A DNA stretch of 57,668 nt from an uncultured Chlorobiota bacterium. Lineage in GTDB: Bacteria; Bacteroidota; Bacteroidia; Bacteroidales; JAADGE01. Of the stretch, positions 8,891 through 31,417 are shown one piece after another; positions within the stretch are counted from its first letter, which is position 1; every line of letters begins with the position of its first letter. A program made the translations under genes and the position numbers. The DNA lies in contig CAMZKV010000007.1 in NCBI GenBank assembly GCA_947311445.1, forward strand, positions 1 through 57,668, written 5' to 3'. The notes beneath the pieces are model-generated. The model saw nothing but the letters and a program-made list of their open reading frames with translations, was not told where the DNA came from and did no database searches.

Positions 8891-9322
8891 ATGAACATCT
8901 TAACCTATGAAGAACAAGGGTATTTGCCAGGTATTATACTTGACAAAGAATCTAGAAAGTTTGAAATATTTGGAAAAACTTGCCCTGAGGATGCTATTGA
9001 ATTTTATAACCCTGTTTTTGAGTGGCTCGATGAATATTCACAAAACCCACTAGAAAAAACTGTTTTTGATTTTAAATTAACTTATTTTAATACAGTTTCA
9101 TCTAAAATAATAATGATGATAATGATGAGGTTGGAAGAAATTTATGAAGATGGTAATGAGGTGTTAATTAGATGGTTTTATCCTGAAGATGATGAAGATT
9201 TAGAAGAAACAGGAGAAGATTTTGAGAGTATGGTGGAAGTCAATTTTGAATTAGTACCATATGAAGAAGATGAAGATGAAGAGTTTGATGATTCAGACGA
9301 TTTAATAGATTCATTATTATAA
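8891..9322 (+). CDS. SiaC family (DUF1987) regulatory phosphoprotein, paralogue 1
   Basis: Small cytosolic partner-switch protein. In Pseudomonas aeruginosa the SiaC protein is phosphorylated on Thr68 by the kinase SiaB and dephosphorylated by the PP2C protein SiaA. This 143-residue protein keeps the family core: FYNPVFEWLDEY near 38-49, the phospho-site motif YFNT with its Thr at residue 68, then SSK and the acidic PEDDEDLEETGEDF. It differs from the other two paralogues by a long acidic tail (EDEDEEFDDSDD). It sits alone behind a full-consensus promoter, apart from its likely partners at 22.6-24.5 kb and 28.7-31.4 kb. The family call is firm; the pathway is inferred. Confidence 0.9.
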   Translation: MNILTYEEQGYLPGIILDKESRKFEIFGKTCPEDAIEFYNPVFEWLDEYSQNPLEKTVFDFKLTYFNTVSSKIIMMIMMRLEEIYEDGNEVLIRWFYPEDDEDLEETGEDFESMVEVNFELVPYEEDEDEEFDDSDDLIDSLL

Positions 9323-9356: not shown

Positions 9357-10877
9357 TTGTTTATTAGAAAAGTACATAAGTTAAACAAACTGAAAAAAAA
9401 AGCCCTTATATTATTTATCTTATCTGCTAGTATATTTTCTGCAAACTCTCAAATTGTTGAAGTCCCTTATGTTGAATATGTAACAGTAAACCATTTAACA
9501 GGAAAACCTGTTATTAAATGGTCTGTAAATAATTCTACCTTAATTTCGGGATATATAATTAAAAGAAAAATATATTCTTGTCCCGGTTATAGCTCAAATT
9601 GGCATAATATAAAAATAATTGATAATTCAAGCCAAACAATATATGAAGATAACTCGTTTGTTTGTGAAGCAATGCCCAATATTAGGAAGGAAAAGTATAT
9701 TATTAGAGCATTCAAAATAACTGGAAACGACACACTTAAAAGCTCTATTAGTGAAATTCATGAAACAATTTTTTTAGAAGCCCAATATGATTTTTGCAAA
9801 AAAGCAAACAGGCTTATTTGGAATAATTATTTAGCATGGGAGGGCAATTTTAATTCTTACGAAATATATGCATATGATTTTATTTCAGGATACATTAAAA
9901 TAGGAAACACTAATTACAATGACACAACATTTATTCATTTAAATGTTGATTATAATAAAAATTATAAATACTATATAAAAGCAATAAAAAATTCCGGAAC
10001 AGAATCCGTTTCAAATATTCAGACTGTTTTTACGCAAGATATTAATAGACCAAGTTTTTTAAAAACTGACTCACTAATAGTTAATAACAAAATTAATCTT
10101 TGGTATAGTGTTGACCCTGATTCAGATACAAAAAGATACATCCTATATAAATCGTCTGATATTAATGAAGTTTATGATTCAATAGCTGGTATTAATAATA
10201 AAGATAATTTAATTTCAGCAACTTTTACAGATGATTATAACAAAAAAAGAAACTATTACTATTTATCTGCCATTGATTATTGTGGAGATGAAATAATGAA
10301 ATCTAATATTGTTAGCAATATTGTTTTGGATGTTAAAAAAGAAGTTGGAAATCAAAAAATAAACAATCTTAAATGGCAAGGAGAATTAAATACTGAATAT
10401 TTAATTACAAGATGTGAAAAAGATAAAACAAATTGTTCTATAATTAATTCAATATATGGATTATCTTATTCGGACAATATACAAAATGAATTTGAAAATC
10501 AGTTTAAGAAAACAACAGAAGGAATATTTTGTTATTATATAGTTTCTGAAAACGAAAACCTAAAAAACCTGTCAAATACAGATTGTGTAATTTATGATGA
10601 AACAATTTTTTTAGCAAATGCCTTCAACCCAAATAGTAGAATTGAAGAAAATAGAATTTTTAAACCAAAAATTGCTTTTATTTCCAATTATGAACTGACT
10701 ATATACGGAAACTTCGGAAATATTATTTTTCAAACAAATAATCCTAATTATGGATGGAACGGAAAACTACTCAGTGGAAAACTTGCCCCAAGAGCTTCTT
10801 ATCTTTATTTTATAAATTATACAAATTCAAAAGGAAAAAAAATATCAAAAAAAGGATATGTTTCACTTGTTTATTGA
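9357..10877 (+). CDS. Secreted protein with T9SS type B (gliding-motility-type) C-terminal domain
   Basis: Predicted extracellular or surface protein of 506 residues. The basic N-terminus KLNKLKKKA and a hydrophobic stretch ending ASIFSANSQ form a signal peptide. The middle (about 35-400) looks like several fibronectin-III-like beta domains, with recurrent patterns such as YEIYAYD and YILYKSS. The last ~90 residues (NAFNPNS ... YGNFGNIIFQT ... YGWNGK ... GYVSLVY) match the T9SS type B / CHU_C sorting domain. The track start is a TTG and no ATG precedes the signal peptide, so the exact start is uncertain. The stop lies one base from the convergent DUF819 stop. The specific role is unknown. Confidence 0.8.
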   Translation: MFIRKVHKLNKLKKKALILFILSASIFSANSQIVEVPYVEYVTVNHLTGKPVIKWSVNNSTLISGYIIKRKIYSCPGYSSNWHNIKIIDNSSQTIYEDNSFVCEAMPNIRKEKYIIRAFKITGNDTLKSSISEIHETIFLEAQYDFCKKANRLIWNNYLAWEGNFNSYEIYAYDFISGYIKIGNTNYNDTTFIHLNVDYNKNYKYYIKAIKNSGTESVSNIQTVFTQDINRPSFLKTDSLIVNNKINLWYSVDPDSDTKRYILYKSSDINEVYDSIAGINNKDNLISATFTDDYNKKRNYYYLSAIDYCGDEIMKSNIVSNIVLDVKKEVGNQKINNLKWQGELNTEYLITRCEKDKTNCSIINSIYGLSYSDNIQNEFENQFKKTTEGIFCYYIVSENENLKNLSNTDCVIYDETIFLANAFNPNSRIEENRIFKPKIAFISNYELTIYGNFGNIIFQTNNPNYGWNGKLLSGKLAPRASYLYFINYTNSKGKKISKKGYVSLVY

Positions 10878-22576: not shown

Positions 22577-22957
22577 TTATTCTTCCATTTCAATCATATT
22601 GAACGGTATTTTTAAAATAGATTGATAATCTTCTCCTGCTTCGAGCATATCTTCGTCATCTTCTTCATAATGCCAATTTATTATAACATTTTCATTCTCT
22701 TTGTGAATTGTTTCTAGTTTTTTGAAAACATCAAGAATACATTTAGAAGAACTTGTGTTAAAATATTCAAGTTTTATATTTACTTCTGTTTTTTCTTTTG
22801 GGTTTTTTCCGTATTCTTCTAGCCAATCAACCAAAGGTTTGTAAAATTCTATTGAATTCTCGGGTATTGATTTTCCTTCAATTTGAATAACTCCTGTTTC
22901 TGCATTAAAAATAATGTCTGGTGTTTTACGTGTTTTTTCAATTTTTATAGACTCCAT
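22577..22957 (-). CDS. siaC: SiaC family (DUF1987) regulatory phosphoprotein, paralogue 2
   Basis: A 126-residue protein and the most canonical of the three SiaC paralogues in the window. It carries FYKPLVDWLEEYG, the phospho-acceptor motif YFNTSSSKCIL with Thr68 at the same number as the known phosphorylated Thr68 of P. aeruginosa SiaC, and the acidic YEEDDEDMLEAGEDYQS. It lies 48 bases after a SiaB-like kinase on the same strand, its probable kinase. In Pseudomonas, unphosphorylated SiaC activates the diguanylate cyclase SiaD; no cyclase is visible here, so the downstream target is unknown. Confidence 0.93.
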   Translation of the reverse strand: MESIKIEKTRKTPDIIFNAETGVIQIEGKSIPENSIEFYKPLVDWLEEYGKNPKEKTEVNIKLEYFNTSSSKCILDVFKKLETIHKENENVIINWHYEEDDEDMLEAGEDYQSILKIPFNMIEMEE

Positions 22958-23005
22958 AGTTGTGTATATTGTTTTTCTTATTTTACAAATTTAAAAATGT
23001 TAATC

Positions 23006-23557
23006 TTAAATTGCAATTCTTAAGCTAAAAAAAATGTAATCTTTATTAAAATAATAAAAATCATAGCCAATATTATTGCCTGTTCGCTTAATTAAATCTA
23101 TTATTCCAAGACCTCCGCCTCCTTTGTTAGAAAATTCTTCGTTATTTAAAATTAAACGATACAACGATTTAACTTCTTCTTTAGACAAAAAATTTAATTG
23201 GTCAATTCGTTCTTTTAATAATCTTGTATTTGTTTTTCTAATAAAATTTCCTGTAATAATTAGATATTTTTCATCTTTCAAATGCTCTAAAAGAAAAGCG
23301 ATATTATTTTTTGGTATTTCTGAATTAAAATGCTTGTCTTTTGATATGTCTGCATGATGATATAAATTTTGCAAAGTTTCAATAGCAACATTATATATCT
23401 TTTTTATTATCCTTCTTTTCTCTTCCTTTTTTGACAAAACATCATCAATATTGTCTAATATTTGGTTGACTTCTTTCTCAGAAATCTTTCCCATATAAGA
23501 TAATAGTGTATTTTCGTTTTTGTTTTTGTTATACCACTTTTCAAGTTCAAAAGCCAT
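23006..23557 (-). CDS. siaB: SiaB family (DUF6272) protein kinase
   Basis: A 183-residue cytosolic GHKL-type kinase expected to phosphorylate SiaC on Thr. The N-box-like NLYHHADI is near residue 61 and the glycine-rich GGGGLGIIDLIKRTGNN is near 148, as in SiaB proteins. It resembles anti-sigma kinases of the SpoIIAB/RsbW type in general logic. It is the middle gene of a three-gene minus-strand unit (coiled-coil membrane protein, siaB, siaC). A TATATTTG box at 23586-23593 just upstream could give siaB-siaC a promoter of its own. Confidence 0.9.
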   Translation of the reverse strand: MAFELEKWYNKNKNENTLLSYMGKISEKEVNQILDNIDDVLSKKEEKRRIIKKIYNVAIETLQNLYHHADISKDKHFNSEIPKNNIAFLLEHLKDEKYLIITGNFIRKTNTRLLKERIDQLNFLSKEEVKSLYRLILNNEEFSNKGGGGLGIIDLIKRTGNNIGYDFYYFNKDYIFFSLRIAI

Positions 23558-23585
23558 AAAAGAAGGTGTTTTCTTAAAGATTTTT

Positions 23586-23593
23586 CAAATATA
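23586..23593 (-). promoter_or_regulatory. Possible internal -7 box before siaB
   Basis: The minus strand reads TATATTTG, fitting TAnnTTTG, 28 bases before siaB and inside the 65-base gap after the coiled-coil gene. There is no matching -33, so it is tentative. Confidence 0.4.
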
Positions 23594-23622
23594 TAAAAAA
23601 AAAGATAATTATTAAATATTTT

Positions 23623-24501
23623 TTATTTCAAAATAAATTGTTTTTCTCCAATTGGGTTTCCATCCATGAAAATATCCACATCATATTTTCCTTCTGATTG
23701 TTCAGCATTTGCTGTCCAGAAAACGCAAACATTTGTTTTGTTTCCTTCGTATGTTAATTCTCTTTTTGATGAGTAAGCAATTTCTTTATTTTTGTATTTA
23801 AACATTCCGGATTCATCACTCATTAATATTATACCATCAGGTGCTGCAATTCTAATATATGCGTATCTTGTTCCTTTTTTTGCTAATACATTATCGTCTA
23901 TTGTAAAACAGATTTTAACTTTCTTTAATTTTTTTGCTTTGCTGGTTTTCTTATCTCTTTTGTTTAGTATTAAAATAGAAATATTCTCTGCTTTTAAAAC
24001 TTTTGCAATTTTAATTTGATTAGATAGGCTGTCTTTTACAATGTTTAATAAATCTGTTTTTGCAATCACACTGTCATAATTTTGTTTTATTTCTATATTT
24101 TCAGAATGTAATTTTTTGTTCTCAATGTTTAATTTATCAATTTGTTTCACAAAATCTTTCATTATAGATTTCAAAGTTTCAGTTTCGTCTTTAAGTTGCT
24201 TTATTTTTGCATAATTTGTTTTTTTAACTCCCCTTAGTTGTCTTAATGCTTCGCTAATTTTCTCTTTTTCAATTTCTAACTTTTGGTTTAGTTCTTTATT
24301 GTCGGTTTTTAGTCCATCGTATTGAACTTGCATTGCCACAAGTTCCTCTTCGATAAGAGCCTTTTCACTTTTTACCTGAACTAGCTCTGTGCTTGTTTCT
24401 TTAATAATTTCTTCTTGTTGAAATTTATCCCATACCAACCAGCCAATTACTATTGCTTCTAGAATTACTATGAATAATGTTACTTTTGAAATTGTGTTCA
24501 T
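23623..24501 (-). CDS. Membrane-anchored coiled-coil protein of unknown function, in the siaB-siaC operon
   Basis: A 292-residue protein. Residues 6-24 are a single transmembrane helix (VTLFIVILEAIVIGWLVW). Residues 30-165 are strongly heptad-like, rich in E, K, L and Q, and should form a long coiled coil. Residues 185-292 look like a small beta-sandwich (KKVKICFTIDDNVLA ... YDVDIFMDGNPIGEKQFILK). No enzymatic motif is seen. Similar TM-coiled-coil-beta proteins occur in Bacteroidota as hypotheticals. The position, 65 bases upstream of a SiaB kinase and co-directional, suggests an envelope-spanning sensor or anchor for the Sia switch; that is inference. Confidence 0.75.
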   Translation of the reverse strand: MNTISKVTLFIVILEAIVIGWLVWDKFQQEEIIKETSTELVQVKSEKALIEEELVAMQVQYDGLKTDNKELNQKLEIEKEKISEALRQLRGVKKTNYAKIKQLKDETETLKSIMKDFVKQIDKLNIENKKLHSENIEIKQNYDSVIAKTDLLNIVKDSLSNQIKIAKVLKAENISILILNKRDKKTSKAKKLKKVKICFTIDDNVLAKKGTRYAYIRIAAPDGIILMSDESGMFKYKNKEIAYSSKRELTYEGNKTNVCVFWTANAEQSEGKYDVDIFMDGNPIGEKQFILK

Positions 24502-24591
24502 ATTTACGTTTTTTGGGTTTTTTTATGTCAATTATTGCTGTTTTTTATTTACCGCATTTTTTTAAGTAATAATAAAATATATGTTAAATTA

Positions 24592-25305
24592 TTATTTTAA
24601 CTCATTAAGATACATTTGTATTGTGTTATGTAAACCAAAATATAATGCATCTGAAATAAGAGCATGACCAATTGAAACTTCTTTTAAATTTTGAATATTT
24701 TTATTGAAATATTTTAAGTTGTCAAGATCCAAATCATGTCCTGCATTTATTTCTAATCCTATTTTAGAAGCTAGCTTTGCTGCTTTTGAAAAAGGTAGAA
24801 TGGCATTTTCTTTATTCTTAAAGAAATTTTCAGCATATGGTTCAGTATATAATTCAATTCTATCTGTTCCAATATCTTTTGCATTTTCAATTAGATTAAT
24901 ATTAGTTTCAATAAAAATTGATGTTCTTATACTAGCATTTTTAAATTCAGAAATAATTTCTTTTAAAAAACTCTTGTTATTAATGGTGTCCCAACCTGCA
25001 TTTGAAGTTAAAACGTCCGGAGAATCAGGAACCAAGGTAACTTGTTCTGGTTTAATTTCTAAAACCAAGTCAATAAATCGTTTATTTGGATAGCCTTCAA
25101 TATTAAATTCAGTTTTTACAACTTCTTTTAATTTATATACATCATCATATCTTATGTGTCTTTCATCTGGTCTTGGATGTACTGTAATTCCTTGTGCTCC
25201 AAACTTTTCGCAATCTATTGCAGCTTTTATTAAATCAGGATTATTCCCTCCCCTTGCATTTCTAATTGTTGCAATTTTATTAATATTTACACTTAATCGT
25301 GTCAT
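24592..25305 (-). CDS. pdxJ: Pyridoxine 5'-phosphate synthase
   Basis: Condenses 1-deoxy-D-xylulose 5-phosphate with 3-amino-2-oxopropyl phosphate to form pyridoxine 5'-phosphate (vitamin B6). The 237-residue TIM barrel has N-terminal [21 protein letters not shown], the active-site strand [21 protein letters not shown] near 72, and [10 protein letters not shown] near 191. Monocistronic on the minus strand, divergent from the CBS-domain gene, an arrangement common in Bacteroidota. Confidence 0.96.
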
Positions 25306-25357
25306 TTTGTTTTGTTCAGAAATAATTTAATAATAATTTTGATGTTTATATAAAATA

Positions 25358-25365
25358 CAAAAGTA
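25358..25365 (-). promoter_or_regulatory. -7 promoter box of pdxJ
   Basis: The minus strand reads TACTTTTG, 52 bases before the pdxJ start. The sequence AAAAGTACT recurs 27 bases further on in the shared intergenic region. Confidence 0.55.
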
Positions 25366-25478
25366 CTATTTTTTTAATTTAAATATAAAAGTACTTACAT
25401 GAATTTTCAATATGCAATTATATTTACTATTTGGAATAGTAAGATTTAGTATTTTGATAGTTTATAAAATAATTAAAA

Positions 25479-26147
25479 ATGCAAGCAAAAAACTTAATAT
25501 CTGATATATTTCCTTCAATATACATTAACGAAACCGGCAAACAAGCTATTTCTAAAATGGATATTTTTAAAGTTTCTCACATACCTTTGATTAATAATGG
25601 AAATGAATATTTTGGACTTCTATCTGAAAATGAAATTTTTGATTTTGATTTAATGGAGAAATCATTTGAAACTTATAAAAAAGTTTTGATTAGACCATTT
25701 GTATATGAAAATCAGCATGCTTTTGATATTATAAAAATTCTTTCTAAACTAAACGTGTCGGTTGTTCCTGTTTTAAACAGAAACGAAAAGTATGTTGGTG
25801 CAGTTTGCATACATGATATTATTAACTATATCGGAAGAATTACTTCTTCAGAAAATACAGGTACTGTTTTTGTTCTTAAAATGAGTATTCAAGATTATTC
25901 TCTTTCTCAAATTTCTCAAATAATTGAAGGTAATAATGCAAAAATTTTAAATTTATATACTACAACTTATAAAGACTCTACAAGACTTGATGTTACAATA
26001 AAAATTAATTTGAATGATTTTTCTGCAATTGAGCAAACATTTGAAAGGTATAATTATAAAATTACTTATTCAAATTCCGGTAGTACTGAGCTTGACGAGC
26101 TCCTTGAAGAAAGATATGAAGAGTTTATGAATTATTTGAATGTATAA
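25479..26147 (+). CDS. CBS-domain pair protein
   Basis: A 222-residue cytosolic protein with two CBS motifs (about residues 1-60 and 66-122; e.g. HIPLINNGNEYFGLLSENEI and VVPVLNRNEKYVGAVCIHDI), likely binding an adenine nucleotide. The C-terminal half (about 128-200) has an ACT-like beta-alpha-beta pattern. The function is unknown. In Bacteroidota this gene often stands divergent from pdxJ, as here. The next gene begins two bases after its stop, so a coupled transcript with the GT39 gene is likely. Confidence 0.82.
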   Translation: MQAKNLISDIFPSIYINETGKQAISKMDIFKVSHIPLINNGNEYFGLLSENEIFDFDLMEKSFETYKKVLIRPFVYENQHAFDIIKILSKLNVSVVPVLNRNEKYVGAVCIHDIINYIGRITSSENTGTVFVLKMSIQDYSLSQISQIIEGNNAKILNLYTTTYKDSTRLDVTIKINLNDFSAIEQTFERYNYKITYSNSGSTELDELLEERYEEFMNYLNV

Positions 26148-26149
26148 AA

Positions 26150-27787
26150 ATGCCTAAAATATCTTCTATATATATATATATACTTATTACCCTAATTGCC
26201 TCATTGTTCTTTATCCCTTTTTTAGGAAATGTGCATCTTTTTGATTGGGATGAAATAAATTTTGCAGAATCTGCAAGAGAAATGATTGTAAGCGGAGATT
26301 ATTTGAATGTTCAAATTAATTATGAGTTTTTCTGGGAAAAACCTCCTCTTTTTATTTGGATGCAAGTAGTTTCAATGAAAATTTTTGGAGTAAATGAATT
26401 TGCAGCTCGTTTTCCTAATGCTTTAGCCGGAATAATTACTTTGTTGCTTCTTTTTAATATTGGGAAAAAGTATTTTGATGATAAGTTTGGAATTATATGG
26501 GTTTTTGCATATGTTGGTTCTGTACTTTCTCATTTTTATTTCAAATCAGGTATTATTGACCCTTGGTTCAATTTATTTATTTTTCTTGGAATATATTTCT
26601 TTATGAAATATATCTCGGATGATATAGCAAGAAGAAAGTTTGTTGTTTTGTCTGCTGTTTTTATTGGTCTTGCAACTTTAACAAAAGGACCGGTTGCCCT
26701 GCTTATTTTTTTGCTGACAGAATTTGTGTTTCTTATTTCAAAAAGGTTTAAAATTCGTTTGAAATTTGTGGATATTTTAATATTTTCATTAGTTTTTATT
26801 TTTATTGGAGGTTTTTGGTTTATTCTTCAGATTTTAAGTGGAAATTATACAATACTTTATGATTTTGTTATTTATCAAATTCGCCTTTTTGAAACCAAAG
26901 ATGCAGGACATGGTGGTTTTCCTGCATACCATTTTGTAATATTATTTTTTGGGGTTTTTCCTGCATCAATTTTTGCATTAAAATCGTTCTTTAACGATAA
27001 ATCGGAACAAGTTAAACAGAAAGTTTTTAAAAAAACTATGATGATTTTGTTTTGGGTAGTTTTAATTTTGTTTAGTATTGTGAAAACAAAAATTGTTCAT
27101 TATTCTTCTCTTGCATATTTCCCACTAACTTTTTTAGCAGCATATTCTATATATAAAACAGAAATAAAAGATTTTAAACAATCTAAAATTATTTCTGCAA
27201 TATTAATTTTTGTAGCAATTATTTTTGGTTTTGCTATTGCAATTATACAATATATTGGTCAAAATCATTTAAAAATAATATCATCGGGAATTATTAATGA
27301 TGAGTTTACAAACGGCAATTTACAGGCAACAACTTCATGGACAGGATTTGAGTTTTTGTTGGGAGTATTTTTAATCTCAGGGATTGTTTTTGCTTTAATT
27401 TATTTCAAAAATAGATATTTTATTAAAGTTATTTTAATATTCTCTATTGTTGCGGTTTTTACAAATTTAGCAATTTTAATTATAGTTCCAGAAGTTGAGA
27501 AAATATCTCAAAAATCTGTTATTGAGTTTTATGAAGAACACCAAAATGAAGATGCGTATTTTATAACTTACGGAATGAAATCGTATGCCCAATATTTCTA
27601 TACAAAGAGTAAACTACCAAAGAAAACTGATATTAAAGATGAAGAATTACTTTTAAATGGAAAAATAAACAAGACTGTTTATGTAACTTGTAGAAATAAT
27701 AAAGATGAATATTTTGCAGAGTCTTATCCGAAGTTTAAAAAAATGTACGAAAAAAACGGTTATGTTTTTTGGAAAAGAAGCCCCTAA
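26150..27787 (+). CDS. GT39-family membrane glycosyltransferase (ArnT/PMT-like)
   Basis: A 545-residue polytopic membrane protein with the PMT/ArnT-type acidic motif LFDWDEINFAESAREM near residue 27 and the following EFFWEKPPLFIWMQ. Such enzymes move a sugar from a polyprenyl-phosphate donor to a lipid or protein acceptor on the periplasmic face. About 10-11 hydrophobic helices can be counted, followed by a soluble tail of about 85 residues. It is tightly coupled to the CBS gene. Donor and acceptor are not predictable. The GT2-DUF2062 gene at 31.5 kb could supply polyprenyl-linked sugar; that is inference. Confidence 0.85.
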   Translation: MPKISSIYIYILITLIASLFFIPFLGNVHLFDWDEINFAESAREMIVSGDYLNVQINYEFFWEKPPLFIWMQVVSMKIFGVNEFAARFPNALAGIITLLLLFNIGKKYFDDKFGIIWVFAYVGSVLSHFYFKSGIIDPWFNLFIFLGIYFFMKYISDDIARRKFVVLSAVFIGLATLTKGPVALLIFLLTEFVFLISKRFKIRLKFVDILIFSLVFIFIGGFWFILQILSGNYTILYDFVIYQIRLFETKDAGHGGFPAYHFVILFFGVFPASIFALKSFFNDKSEQVKQKVFKKTMMILFWVVLILFSIVKTKIVHYSSLAYFPLTFLAAYSIYKTEIKDFKQSKIISAILIFVAIIFGFAIAIIQYIGQNHLKIISSGIINDEFTNGNLQATTSWTGFEFLLGVFLISGIVFALIYFKNRYFIKVILIFSIVAVFTNLAILIIVPEVEKISQKSVIEFYEEHQNEDAYFITYGMKSYAQYFYTKSKLPKKTDIKDEELLLNGKINKTVYVTCRNNKDEYFAESYPKFKKMYEKNGYVFWKRSP

Positions 27788-27818
27788 GTTGAAAGTTTAA
27801 AATTAAAAGTGTAATAGA

Positions 27819-28685
27819 TTAATTGTTTTTCAAATATTTGTTTTCTAAATCATAGACTATTTTTTTTACTTCTGCTGCCCATTCTAAATGTGTTTTAGAA
27901 TCATCAAAAGTTGAATATGGAATAGGTTTTCCGTAAACAATTGGGATTGTTGCATTACGTTTCTTAAAAACTTCGCCGGGGAGCAAAAAGAATTCTAAAT
28001 TAGCCTTAATGCCTAAAAAAGTTCTAATTTTTGCCAATCTATAAAATTTTTTGGAATTTCTCCCACCAACAAATATAGGAATAATATCTTTTTTGTGTTC
28101 AATTGCATTTCTGATAAAACTTCTATGCCAAAACCCGTCGTCTAATTTGTTTTTTACCATTCGTGCAACTTTACCTGCTGGAAAAATAAGTATGTGTGAA
28201 CCTTCTTTTTCAAGATGTTCTTCAATTGCATCTTTTTTATGCTTCTCGTTTTTTTCAATAACACTAACAGGCAAGAAAATTTCTTTTACATTTTCTATAT
28301 GCAAAAACATTTCATTGGCAATTAATTTTATGTTCTTAAATTTTTCTTGAATTTTAGAGTACACAACTCCAAAGTCAATTCCTCCCATTGAATGGTTGCT
28401 TGCAAAAATAAAACTTCCTTTTTCAGGAAGAAAATCTTCATTAAAAGCTATAATTTTCACATTCAAATGTCTTAAAACTCCATTTACAAAATCTGCTCCG
28501 TATAGATTTTTATTTTTTTTAAGGATAATATTCGTCTCTGTTTGATGAAAAGATTTTTTTAAAAAGCGAATTATAAACTTTGGAAAATTTCTAACAGTCT
28601 TATTCTTTTGATTTCGAATAATTTTTTCAATATCTAATTGTTGAGCCTCTTTTTTTATGTTGTTTTTATTTAAAATATCTTTCAT
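27819..28685 (-). CDS. PlsC-like 1-acyl-glycerol-3-phosphate acyltransferase family protein
   Basis: A 288-residue acyltransferase. The catalytic NHxxxxD-type motif appears as NHSMGGID near residue 99, and the acceptor-binding FPAGKVARM lies near 175. Family members acylate lysophosphatidate or related lipids at the inner membrane. The Bacteroidota subtype lacks a clear membrane helix but has basic N- and C-terminal parts. It lies 10 bases downstream of the PAS/SpoIIE phosphatase gene on the same strand, so it is probably the last gene of that operon. Confidence 0.8.
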   Translation of the reverse strand: MKDILNKNNIKKEAQQLDIEKIIRNQKNKTVRNFPKFIIRFLKKSFHQTETNIILKKNKNLYGADFVNGVLRHLNVKIIAFNEDFLPEKGSFIFASNHSMGGIDFGVVYSKIQEKFKNIKLIANEMFLHIENVKEIFLPVSVIEKNEKHKKDAIEEHLEKEGSHILIFPAGKVARMVKNKLDDGFWHRSFIRNAIEHKKDIIPIFVGGRNSKKFYRLAKIRTFLGIKANLEFFLLPGEVFKKRNATIPIVYGKPIPYSTFDDSKTHLEWAAEVKKIVYDLENKYLKNN

Positions 28686-28695
28686 TTTAATTTTT

Positions 28696-31008
28696 TTATG
28701 CTTCCCAATTTATTCCTAAAAAAGTAACATCATCAATTTGTTCTTGTTCTTGTTGCCAGTTATTAAAATAATCTCTGAATATTACTTCTTGATCTTTAAA
28801 AGATAATGAGCTATTTTCTGTAATAATATTTTTAAATTGTTTTTTACCTATCTTCTTCCCTTCTGGGTTTATTTGGTCGTAATATCCATCAGAGAAAAGA
28901 TATATTTTGTCATTTTTTTGAAGCTGAATTTCTATGGTTTGAAAATTAGTTTCATTATAATGAAAACCTATAGGGTTTCTACTGGCTTTATATTCAATTA
29001 ATTCGTTATTGCGAATAATTATTAAAGGATGATAAGCTCCGGAATATTTCATGATGTTTGTTTTAGAATCTACATTGCAAAGAGAAATATTAAAGCCGTC
29101 AGGATTGTTGCTTCCAAATGTTTTGTATGTTTTTTTAAAGCGTTGCCGTATTAAATCTAATGTTTTTCCTGTGTTTTCTGCATTTCCTGTTTTTGCAATT
29201 TCATGAAGATATGTAATGGCAATCATACTAAGGAAGCCTCCAGAAATCCCATGCCCTGTGCAATCACCAACCGCAAATATTATTTGGTTTTTTACTTTAT
29301 TTACATAGTAAAAATCTCCTCCAACCGAGAATTTTTGTTCAAATATTAGAAAATAGTTATTGAAAAGTTTGTCAATTAATTCTATCTTCGATAAAAGTGC
29401 ATCTTGTATTTTTTTTGCATACCTAAGATTGTCTAATATGTCTTTATGTGCAGAAGCAATTTTTTTATTGCTTTCTTCCAATTCCAATTCTGTTTGCTTT
29501 CTTCGTGTAATGTCTCTTGAAATTCCTCCTATTGCAATAGCCTTGTTGTTTTTATCATAAATAAGATAAGCCATAACTTCCGCAATAATTATATGCCCGT
29601 CTTTATGTATATATTCAATTTCGGTTGTTATTCCTTTTGCTGCATCCGGATTGTTTCTTATTTCTACTGTGTTTTCAATCAATTTTTTAATTTTGAGTTG
29701 AAATTCTTTTGTATGTATTTTTGCTAAACCAAATGATTTAATTTCTTCGATAGTATAACCCAAGAATTTTTTACAAGAAGGGCTTATATATAATGGTTCA
29801 ACATCAAAAGATAGCATCCATATAAAATCACTCATGTAATTTGCCAATAAATCATATTTTTTAATCGTTTCTTCTAATAATTTATATTGGCTTGCAATTT
29901 TTTCATGTGCATTTATAAGTACTTCATTGTTTTGTTTTAGCTCTTCTGTTTTTGCAGAAAGTTGTTTGTTTTTATGTTTTATTTCTTTTTCTGTGTTTTT
30001 TCTTTCAGTTATATCTTGAAGAACACCAATCATATGGATAAGACTACCTTTTTTGTCTTTTATTATTTCAGAAGTTGCATCTATGAAGTGGATCTTATCT
30101 TCTTTTATAATACGATATTCTGTTTTGTGAATTTTTATATTATTTTTAATTGCTAAATCTAATTCTTTTAGGATTCTATCTTTGTCTTTATAATAAATAT
30201 AGTTTAAAAACTCTTCATATTTTAGTTTTTTTCCTGTATTTTCTTTTCCGAAAATATCATATGTTATATCAGTCCAAATAACATCGCCGGTTTTAACATT
30301 CCATTCCCAAGTTCCAATTCTTCCGGTTTTTTGTGCAAGACTTAAACGTTTTTCATTTTCTTTTAATTTTTTGTTAACTAAAAACAATTCGTCATTTTTT
30401 AGCTTTTGTTCATTGTCATAGATTGTAAGCTCGTCATTGGTTTTTTCTAAGTCAGATAAAGCTTTTTTTAAGTGTTTTTGGGTTTCTTCCCTCGAATATT
30501 CAATGGTTATAAAAAGTATATTTAAAATTATATAGGAAACAACAAATCTTAACATTAAACTTGGAGTATAACTATTTGTTAGAAGTTCAGGAAAAAAAAG
30601 ATAGATTGATAATGAGGTTAGTAAAAAAAACAAAGAGTAAATAGCACCTCTTTTATAGTTTGTTAATGATATTGCTAATGTTGAAAAAATATAAAACCAA
30701 AATAAACCCGCAACACCTACACCTAAGAAAGTAAATATTATTATAGAAAAAACAAACATTAATAAAATAATAATGTGTGCAGAAATATCAACTTTATTTG
30801 AAAAATAAAGAAAGACAATATTAGAAAATGTAATTATCCAAAAAATAAAAATGTAGGTACTATATACTATTTTTCCAGACATTAATCCTCCTACTCCAAA
30901 CATTGTAAGTGGGATTAATGCAGTAAAAGAAAAAAGAAAAACTAGAAACTTTTTTCTTTTAATTTCATTGTTAATATTAATTTTAAATAATGATTTTATT
31001 TTTTGCAA
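28696..31008 (-). CDS. Membrane PAS-PAS-SpoIIE (PP2C) phosphatase
   Basis: A 770-residue sensor phosphatase. About six membrane helices lie in residues 20-180, followed by a coiled coil (~180-230). The first PAS/PAC domain is at ~230-345 (TGRIGTWEWN ... GVLQDITERK) and the second at ~385-510 (SPSCKKFLGYTIEEI ... GGISRDITRRK). The SpoIIE/PP2C domain runs from ~555 to the end, with metal-binding SVGGDFYYV and VGDCTGHGISGG. Such domains dephosphorylate Ser/Thr in partner-switch proteins. It lies 40 bases after a divergent SiaC paralogue, so it is the likely SiaA counterpart. The start is TTG at 31008; no upstream ATG exists. Confidence 0.9.
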   Translation of the reverse strand: MQKIKSLFKININNEIKRKKFLVFLFSFTALIPLTMFGVGGLMSGKIVYSTYIFIFWIITFSNIVFLYFSNKVDISAHIIILLMFVFSIIIFTFLGVGVAGLFWFYIFSTLAISLTNYKRGAIYSLFFLLTSLSIYLFFPELLTNSYTPSLMLRFVVSYIILNILFITIEYSREETQKHLKKALSDLEKTNDELTIYDNEQKLKNDELFLVNKKLKENEKRLSLAQKTGRIGTWEWNVKTGDVIWTDITYDIFGKENTGKKLKYEEFLNYIYYKDKDRILKELDLAIKNNIKIHKTEYRIIKEDKIHFIDATSEIIKDKKGSLIHMIGVLQDITERKNTEKEIKHKNKQLSAKTEELKQNNEVLINAHEKIASQYKLLEETIKKYDLLANYMSDFIWMLSFDVEPLYISPSCKKFLGYTIEEIKSFGLAKIHTKEFQLKIKKLIENTVEIRNNPDAAKGITTEIEYIHKDGHIIIAEVMAYLIYDKNNKAIAIGGISRDITRRKQTELELEESNKKIASAHKDILDNLRYAKKIQDALLSKIELIDKLFNNYFLIFEQKFSVGGDFYYVNKVKNQIIFAVGDCTGHGISGGFLSMIAITYLHEIAKTGNAENTGKTLDLIRQRFKKTYKTFGSNNPDGFNISLCNVDSKTNIMKYSGAYHPLIIIRNNELIEYKASRNPIGFHYNETNFQTIEIQLQKNDKIYLFSDGYYDQINPEGKKIGKKQFKNIITENSSLSFKDQEVIFRDYFNNWQQEQEQIDDVTFLGINWEA

Positions 31009-31048
31009 TTTAGAGAGTATTATTTTAATAACTTAATTTTTTTAAGAA

Positions 31049-31417
31049 CTATTCAGCCTCTTCAAAAATTTTAATGGGAATATTAAAAATGTCAGCTAAT
31101 TCTTCTGCAAATTCGAGATTGTCTTCATCATCATAAACATACCACAAAATTTTTATTTTCTTTCCAGATTTAAAAAAGTTATTTAGCCTTGATATTAAGT
31201 ATAGAATTTTCTTTTGAGTTATACTGCTTATAACATAAAGTTTAAAAACACAATCTAATTCACAAGAAAGACTTGGGATTTCTTTTTCAATCAAACTTAT
31301 TATATCGTCAAATAATTTGTCAACAGATTCGGAATAAGACGAACCTATTATTTCAAATTTGCATTCTTCAATTGAGATATATATAGAAGGACTCCCTTTT
31401 GTATCTTTAATATGCAT
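31049..31417 (-). CDS. Divergent SiaC family (DUF1987) protein, paralogue 3
   Basis: A 122-residue protein recognisable as SiaC/DUF1987 by its layout: short N-terminal strand pair (SPSIYISIEECKFEIIG), central region ending LDCVFKLYVISS, then helix ITQKKILYLISRLNNF and IKILWYVYDDEDNLEFAEEL. The usual phospho-acceptor YFNTSS is replaced by YVISSIT, so the acceptor, if any, would be Ser64, Ser65 or Thr67. It is the first gene of an operon with the PAS/SpoIIE phosphatase. A TATATTTG box lies 27 bases upstream. It is probably the dedicated partner of that phosphatase. Confidence 0.8.
   Translation of the reverse strand: MHIKDTKGSPSIYISIEECKFEIIGSSYSESVDKLFDDIISLIEKEIPSLSCELDCVFKLYVISSITQKKILYLISRLNNFFKSGKKIKILWYVYDDEDNLEFAEELADIFNIPIKIFEEAE

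Follow-up and report, generated by a model that had tools for sequence, protein, structure and literature searches.

Sia-type phospho-switch genes of a Bacteroidales bacterium and an ABC exporter as their probable output

Results

Sia-type genes of the window

The stretch of DNA analysed here (the window, 57,668 nucleotides) is the whole of contig C7 (CAMZKV010000007.1) in the assembly of an uncultured Bacteroidales bacterium (GCA_947311445.1; 2.75 Mb, 93.75% complete). It encodes three proteins of the SiaC family (DUF1987), together with a SiaB-family kinase and a SpoIIE phosphatase, and is discussed here in relation to the SiaABCD system of Pseudomonas aeruginosa. A sequence-only reading of the window had described these genes as two Sia-type operons and an orphan SiaC, and open reading frames were confirmed at all of its coordinates. 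Taken together, our data make it probable that Bacteroidia possess an expanded Sia-type phospho-switch network in which the output is an ATP-binding cassette (ABC) exporter, not a diguanylate cyclase. The Sia-type genes, referred to below by their start coordinates, are as follows.

22577..22957, minus strand: SiaC of core orthologue group II (PF09345 E=6.6e-47, 158.5 bits), with the phospho-site Thr in NTSS
23006..23557, minus strand: SiaB-family GHKL protein kinase, the upstream partner of SiaC 22577 (DUF6272 1.8e-30; NF038262 121.9 bits)
28696..31008, minus strand: PAS-PAS-SpoIIE (PP2C) phosphatase, the partner of SiaC 31049 (two PAS domains; PF07228 1.3e-22)
31049..31417, minus strand: divergent SiaC with Ser replacing the phospho-Thr (PF09345 E=1.5e-19, 70.3 bits)
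8891..9322, plus strand: third SiaC paralogue, with a Thr phospho-site (PF09345 E=4.2e-37, 126.9 bits)

All three SiaC proteins score above the curated PF09345 cut-off of 24.5 bits, which bears out their earlier assignment to DUF1987, and all three fall below the SiaC biofilm-regulation equivalog NF038265 (105.7, 72.8 and 44.8 against 150 bits). The kinase assignment also holds, as SiaB 23006 passes the NCBIfam model SiaB_fam_kinase (cut-off 85 bits), matches the SiaB chain of 6KKO and, when aligned with P. aeruginosa SiaB, retains the N-box E..QN with its catalytic Glu and Asn as well as the GGGGLG box. Solved relatives of the window SiaC and SiaB proteins are found in 6KKO and 6K4F. The solved chain nearest to phosphatase 28696 is the SiaA PP2C domain 6K4E (1.7e-25); the protein carries the SpoIIE/PP2C domain itself and lies below the SiaA equivalog NF038263, to which it aligns over the PP2C part only (141.8 against 700 bits). 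Position 68 in P. aeruginosa SiaC numbering aligns with Thr in SiaC 22577 and 8891 and with Ser in 31049, and is Thr or Ser in 13/13 SiaC proteins of the genome.

Gene-neighbourhood comparison showed that both pairs recur in relatives. Orthologues of SiaC 22577 in 20 relatives are 70-98% identical to it and are nearly always found beside a SiaB gene, whose product is 36-97% identical to SiaB 23006; flanking genes vary around this conserved SiaB-SiaC pair, and helices alpha2 and alpha3 of SiaC are nearly invariant among the orthologues. The pairing of a PAS-PAS-SpoIIE phosphatase with a divergent SiaC is likewise upheld, by its domain matches and by retention of the 31049-SpoIIE pair in genomes G006 and G007. 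Most of the SiaC paralogues sampled in relatives are linked to their own SiaB and/or SpoIIE.

Profile searches of the whole genome found 13 SiaC proteins, 11 SiaB domains and 24 SpoIIE domains over cut-off, and a single STAS protein. A search of the same genome for GGDEF domains gave zero matches even at E up to 1, and eight control genomes score above cut-off. The earlier statement that there is no diguanylate cyclase, and that the output is not SiaD, is therefore sustained genome-wide. SiaC was present in every family member searched, at 10-19 copies, except for 3 in a 70% complete genome. In the remainder of the order its distribution is patchy; across all relatives searched 30/40 are positive, and in a phylum sample it was found in 12/103 genera only, usually as one copy.

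An ABC exporter encoded after SiaC

Contig C18 of the same genome has the gene order SpoIIE-SiaB-SiaC, and the next gene encodes an ABC transporter of 1084 residues in which TerB-like, ABC and ABC-2 domains are recognised. A lipoprotein gene and a gene for a secreted protein complete a six-gene order (SpoIIE-SiaB-SiaC-ABC-lipoprotein-secreted protein) that is found both on C18 and in many families. The exporter is of ABCG type and about 1,050 residues long. It shares with the ABCG/White subfamily (TIGR00955, the best NCBIfam model, below its cut-off) a nucleotide-binding domain followed by an ABC-2 membrane domain in a single chain, and differs from that subfamily by its TerB-like plus FHA-like front end and by a large insertion before the last helix. 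Residues 1-262 are predicted by AlphaFold to form a TerB-like helical domain and an FHA-like sandwich (predicted local distance difference test score 86.9), and this front end is a plausible docking site for SiaC. The module lipoprotein (about 300 residues, with a lipobox Cys that was identified by eye and is invariant) and the secreted protein (about 145 residues, with a signal peptide identified by eye) gave no Pfam match above cut-off and no NCBIfam match; a Foldseek search with the lipoprotein returned no match (best E 0.4).

The transmembrane half of the exporter was used as a query in the same 40 relatives as the SiaC search. The exporter was found in exactly the 30/40 genomes with SiaC and in 0/10 of those without it. 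Counted by family, SiaC and exporter are concordant in 20/20 cases, for which the chance under random assortment is 5e-6 if families are taken as independent, an assumption that holds only in part. Within the phylum sample, the class has four further SiaC-positive genomes (G084, G088, G185 and G225), all with an exporter match of >250 bits, and no SiaC-negative genome scores >60 bits; a GGDEF search of those same four genomes found none. Searching GTDB genomes with an alignment of the exporter gave 80 loci, whose titles are Bacteroidota or subgroups bar a few, e.g. Candidatus Planktophila. SiaC lies within six genes of the exporter in 55 of these 80 loci and directly adjacent in 50, a fraction ascertained via the exporter and not tested from the SiaC side. 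Cultured hosts of the operon include Anaerophaga, Flexithrix, Cesiribacter and Fulvivirga. The output of the window genes had earlier been called unknown; on the basis of this co-occurrence and operon linkage, the ABC exporter is a strongly supported candidate.

Outside the class, eight SiaC-positive genomes gave no strong exporter match, but GGDEF proteins are present in them. The gene after SiaC encodes a GGDEF protein in two of these eight; at other loci outside the class it may encode a histidine kinase, a PP2C protein, a membrane protein or a tiny protein of 77-99 residues. The position after SiaC is therefore filled differently inside and outside the class: by the exporter within it, and by a cyclase or another protein beyond it. 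As a separate observation, the products of the genes after SiaC at eight loci (L133, L134, L135, L137, L138, L139, L140 and L141) have in common a helical stalk motif of the kind A-M-K-I-T-R-I-G/S-D-x-x-Q-x-K-L, joined to cyclases, a histidine kinase, a PP2C, a membrane protein or the 77-99 residue proteins. The motif matches the SiaD residues contacted by SiaC and may represent a portable SiaC-binding tag.

Relating the window SiaC proteins to exporters on other contigs

In a SiaC tree, built on a short alignment that leaves many forks unresolved, an operon-type group is accompanied by a separate group (Shimodaira-Hasegawa-like approximate likelihood ratio support 94) that holds SiaC 22577 together with SiaC proteins from other families whose genes are convergent with the exporter. 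In other families, orthologues of 22577 sit tail-to-tail with the exporter gene, and the exporter is their neighbour in at least five families. The exporter tree splits deeply into two clades, both with strong support, and these correspond to the two SiaC groups: in one SiaC lies upstream on the same strand, and in the other SiaC is convergent or there is none. The exporter on contig C1 of the own genome groups, at 100% support, with exporters that adjoin 22577 orthologues (L088, L091, L096 and L119), so SiaC 22577 and SiaB 23006 most probably serve the C1 exporter. SiaC 8891 is the sister of a G019 SiaC encoded two genes upstream of an exporter orthologous to the own C61 exporter. A symporter gene lies between the G019 SiaC and that exporter, and the same symporter is present in the own-genome counterpart. 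SiaC 8891 may serve the C61 exporter, a weaker case than the pairing of 22577 with C1. From the tree placements of the C1 and C61 exporters, SiaC 22577 and 8891 thus map, with unequal support, to exporters on other contigs. The third, Ser-type SiaC 31049 clusters with two SiaC proteins of contig C93 and the SiaC at C4:58857, and would form a branch apart together with its dedicated phosphatase.

Residues at the SiaC partner surface

In P. aeruginosa, unphosphorylated SiaC binds the coiled-coil stalk of SiaD with Tyr65, Asn67, Thr68 and Ser69, at helix alpha2, and with residues of alpha3; this binding is prevented once Thr68 is phosphorylated (PMC8457831). Corresponding positions were compared across 83 SiaC proteins from both exporter-linked groups. 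Every one of them has Tyr65 and Asn67 (83/83), and Thr68 and Trp95 are each kept in 82/83. Two SiaD-contact residues are replaced, Arg103 by Asp in 83/83 and Leu107 by Ala in 81/83. This pattern fits a switch that would use the same surface for a different partner.

Neighbouring genes and other Sia loci

Three further genes of the window lie next to the Sia-type genes.

9357..10877, plus strand: CHU_C type IX secretion cargo, a recurrent neighbour of SiaC 8891 (PF13585 2.8e-09)
23623..24501, minus strand: membrane coiled-coil protein, co-directional with the SiaB-SiaC pair and not part of the switch
27819..28685, minus strand: GlsA-type lyso-glycine-lipid O-acyltransferase (NF053697 262.7 bits), co-directional and probably outside the switch

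The coiled-coil protein had been placed in the first operon, and was an attractive candidate target, since the part of SiaD that SiaC binds is a coiled-coil stalk. It is present in 34/40 relatives, including 9/10 without SiaC, and in most relatives its gene is on a different contig from the 22577 orthologue, so it was ruled out as a SiaC partner and its operon membership is not maintained. In relatives, the genes upstream of SiaB encode a short-chain dehydrogenase and an RNA methyltransferase-like protein (identified by eye), which we take as housekeeping. The gene at 27819 does encode an acyltransferase, as stated earlier for the second operon, although it narrowly passes the GlsA cut-off (262.7 against 260 bits) and is GlsA-like rather than a generic PlsC. 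Its membership of the switch was not supported: the one flank of a 31049-type SiaC-SpoIIE pair that was readable, in a more distant genus member (L228), does not contain the gene, the contig ending in L227. SiaC 8891 had been described as standing alone; it is not entirely so, as a CHU_C gene adjoins 8891-type SiaC in 7/8 family loci examined, as gene 9357 does here.

Elsewhere in the genome, contig C88 encodes SiaB-SiaB-SiaC in one polypeptide (L057:7969-9516), and the gene after it encodes a protein of 662 residues with a C-terminal Ion_trans_2 channel. Contig C23 has a tandem SiaB followed by four SiaC genes in a row (L056:7619-9355). At two tandem or paired SiaB loci (L058:10971-12143 and L054:10033-11098), the catalytic or G-box residues of one of the kinase domains are degenerate, and these domains are possible pseudokinase regulators. 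Contig C93 (L060) carries two Ser-type SiaC genes, a run of hemerythrins and two SpoIIE genes; this operon type is conserved in two other genus members (L231 and L233), and the hemerythrins suggest an oxygen or iron input. In G001, a WD40-repeat protein with a C-terminal caspase-like (Peptidase_C14) domain is encoded directly upstream of the SiaC-SiaC-hemerythrin operon (L233:2949-6356). Other SiaC genes of the genome adjoin an Hsp90 gene (C4) or a two-component-propeller phosphatase gene (C37).

Discussion

We propose that the SiaB kinase would phosphorylate SiaC on the Thr or Ser at the start of helix alpha2, and that a sensor-SpoIIE phosphatase would strip this phosphate when a signal arrives. 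SiaC in one of its two forms, most likely without phosphate if P. aeruginosa is a guide, would then bind the exporter at its cytosolic TerB-FHA-like front and turn transport on or off. More tentatively, and with slightly less than even confidence, we suggest that parallel SpoIIE-SiaB-SiaC lines gate exporters by direct protein binding and so replace second-messenger signalling in Bacteroidia that lack cyclases for cyclic diguanylate (c-di-GMP).

Several observations weigh against an exporter output. The window itself has no exporter, the pairing of 22577 with C1 is drawn from neighbours in other families and that of 8891 with C61 from one locus (L123), and most of the 13 SiaC genes in the genome have no adjoining exporter. 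The co-occurrence of SiaC and exporter is strong, yet the genomes are related, and gene order and co-occurrence would look alike for an output, a sensor or a bystander. Nearly all top Foldseek matches of the FHA-like domain are FHA domains, with probability up to 1.00, but at a weak E of about 0.02. A 38-sequence consensus inspected by eye lacks the canonical GR...SxxH phosphothreonine signature, and we therefore do not claim that this domain reads phospho-SiaC. The SiaD-type stalk motif (K-V/I-x-R-I-S/G-D-x-x-Q) had no convincing match in the Bacteroidia exporter; when Bacteroidia proteins were searched with a regular expression, the sole resemblance was in SpoIIE linker helices, probably a general SpoIIE feature.

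It could instead be that SiaC paralogues control many unrelated targets, with the exporter serving one or two, such that the targets of the window SiaC proteins could not be named from gene order. The variety of genes beside SiaC is in keeping with this, both in the own genome (the ion-channel protein of C88, the hemerythrins of C93, the Hsp90 of C4 and the propeller phosphatase of C37) and outside the class (cyclase, histidine kinase, PP2C or tiny protein). We nevertheless regard it as rather unlikely, given the exact genome-level co-occurrence and the orthology of 22577 to exporter-adjoining SiaC in at least five families. Alternatively, the exporter module might act upstream, sensing or exporting a signal on which SpoIIE, SiaB and SiaC report, with a transcriptional or other output elsewhere. 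The lipoprotein and secreted protein could be parts of such a sensor, but the SpoIIE proteins bear their own PAS or GAF sensor domains, and P. aeruginosa SiaD, co-encoded with SiaC, is bound and activated (PMC8457831), and the exporter occupies the same operon slot; this arrangement is improbable. A branched switch, in which one kinase and one phosphatase are common to all three window SiaC proteins, had been suggested by the sequence-only reading. The count is right for the window, but the genome-wide numbers of SiaB, SpoIIE and SiaC, the separate conservation of the SiaB-22577 and SpoIIE-31049 pairs and the difference at the phospho-site make a shared switch very improbable; some cross-talk among the window Sia proteins may still occur. 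A canonical SiaABCD system regulating a diguanylate cyclase elsewhere has the SiaC, SiaB and SpoIIE homology in its favour, but is refuted by the absence of GGDEF in the own genome at E=1 and in the class's four further SiaC-positive genomes, unless the ~6% that the assembly lacks contains such a gene.

The preferred reading, with the exporter as output, can be set beside known systems. The P. aeruginosa SiaABCD system (PMC7647112, PMC8457831; PDB 6K4E, 6K4F, 6KKO, 7E6G) likewise has a SpoIIE/PP2C protein, a SiaB GHKL kinase and SiaC in one operon, and shares the phospho-acceptor position and core SiaC residues. The system described here differs in that it has no SiaD or GGDEF protein, its SiaD slot being taken by the ABCG-type exporter, lipoprotein and secreted protein; in having 13 SiaC paralogues; and in the change of the SiaD-contact residues R103 and L107 to Asp and Ala. 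The SpoIIAA/RsbV anti-anti-sigma switches also employ a PP2C phosphatase and a GHKL kinase on a small STAS-fold protein, a fold that SiaC resembles (PMC7647112), but here the SiaC family stands in place of PF01740, the genome has one STAS protein and no sigma-factor target is implied. Rv1747 of Mycobacterium tuberculosis is likewise an FHA-type ABC exporter encoded beside a Ser/Thr protein kinase, PknF, which modulates the transporter (PMC3908365, PMC5549992). The abstracts of these two papers name no SiaC adaptor or SpoIIE phosphatase, and the exporter described here differs in its TerB-like domain and in an FHA-like domain without the canonical motif.

The SiaC family (DUF1987) is widespread, and its sole established output in the literature cited here is SiaD of Pseudomonas (PMC7647112, PMC8457831). 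Our literature search found no paper on the six-gene operon, nor any that links SiaC or SiaB to Bacteroidota or to ABC transporters. The SiaC of two Bacteroidota papers is a Capnocytophaga sialidase, which we take to share the name alone. Finding an exporter at the SiaD position, and its exact coincidence with SiaC among relatives, offers a concrete and testable second SiaC output, and the cultured hosts that carry the operon make the exporter-output model open to experiment. The operon also points to two uncharacterised envelope proteins that travel with the exporter. Overall, these data suggest a way in which complex phospho-signalling operates in a lineage that has no detectable GGDEF proteins, and if parallel Sia lines do gate exporters, the partner switch would govern membrane transport rather than transcription or c-di-GMP.

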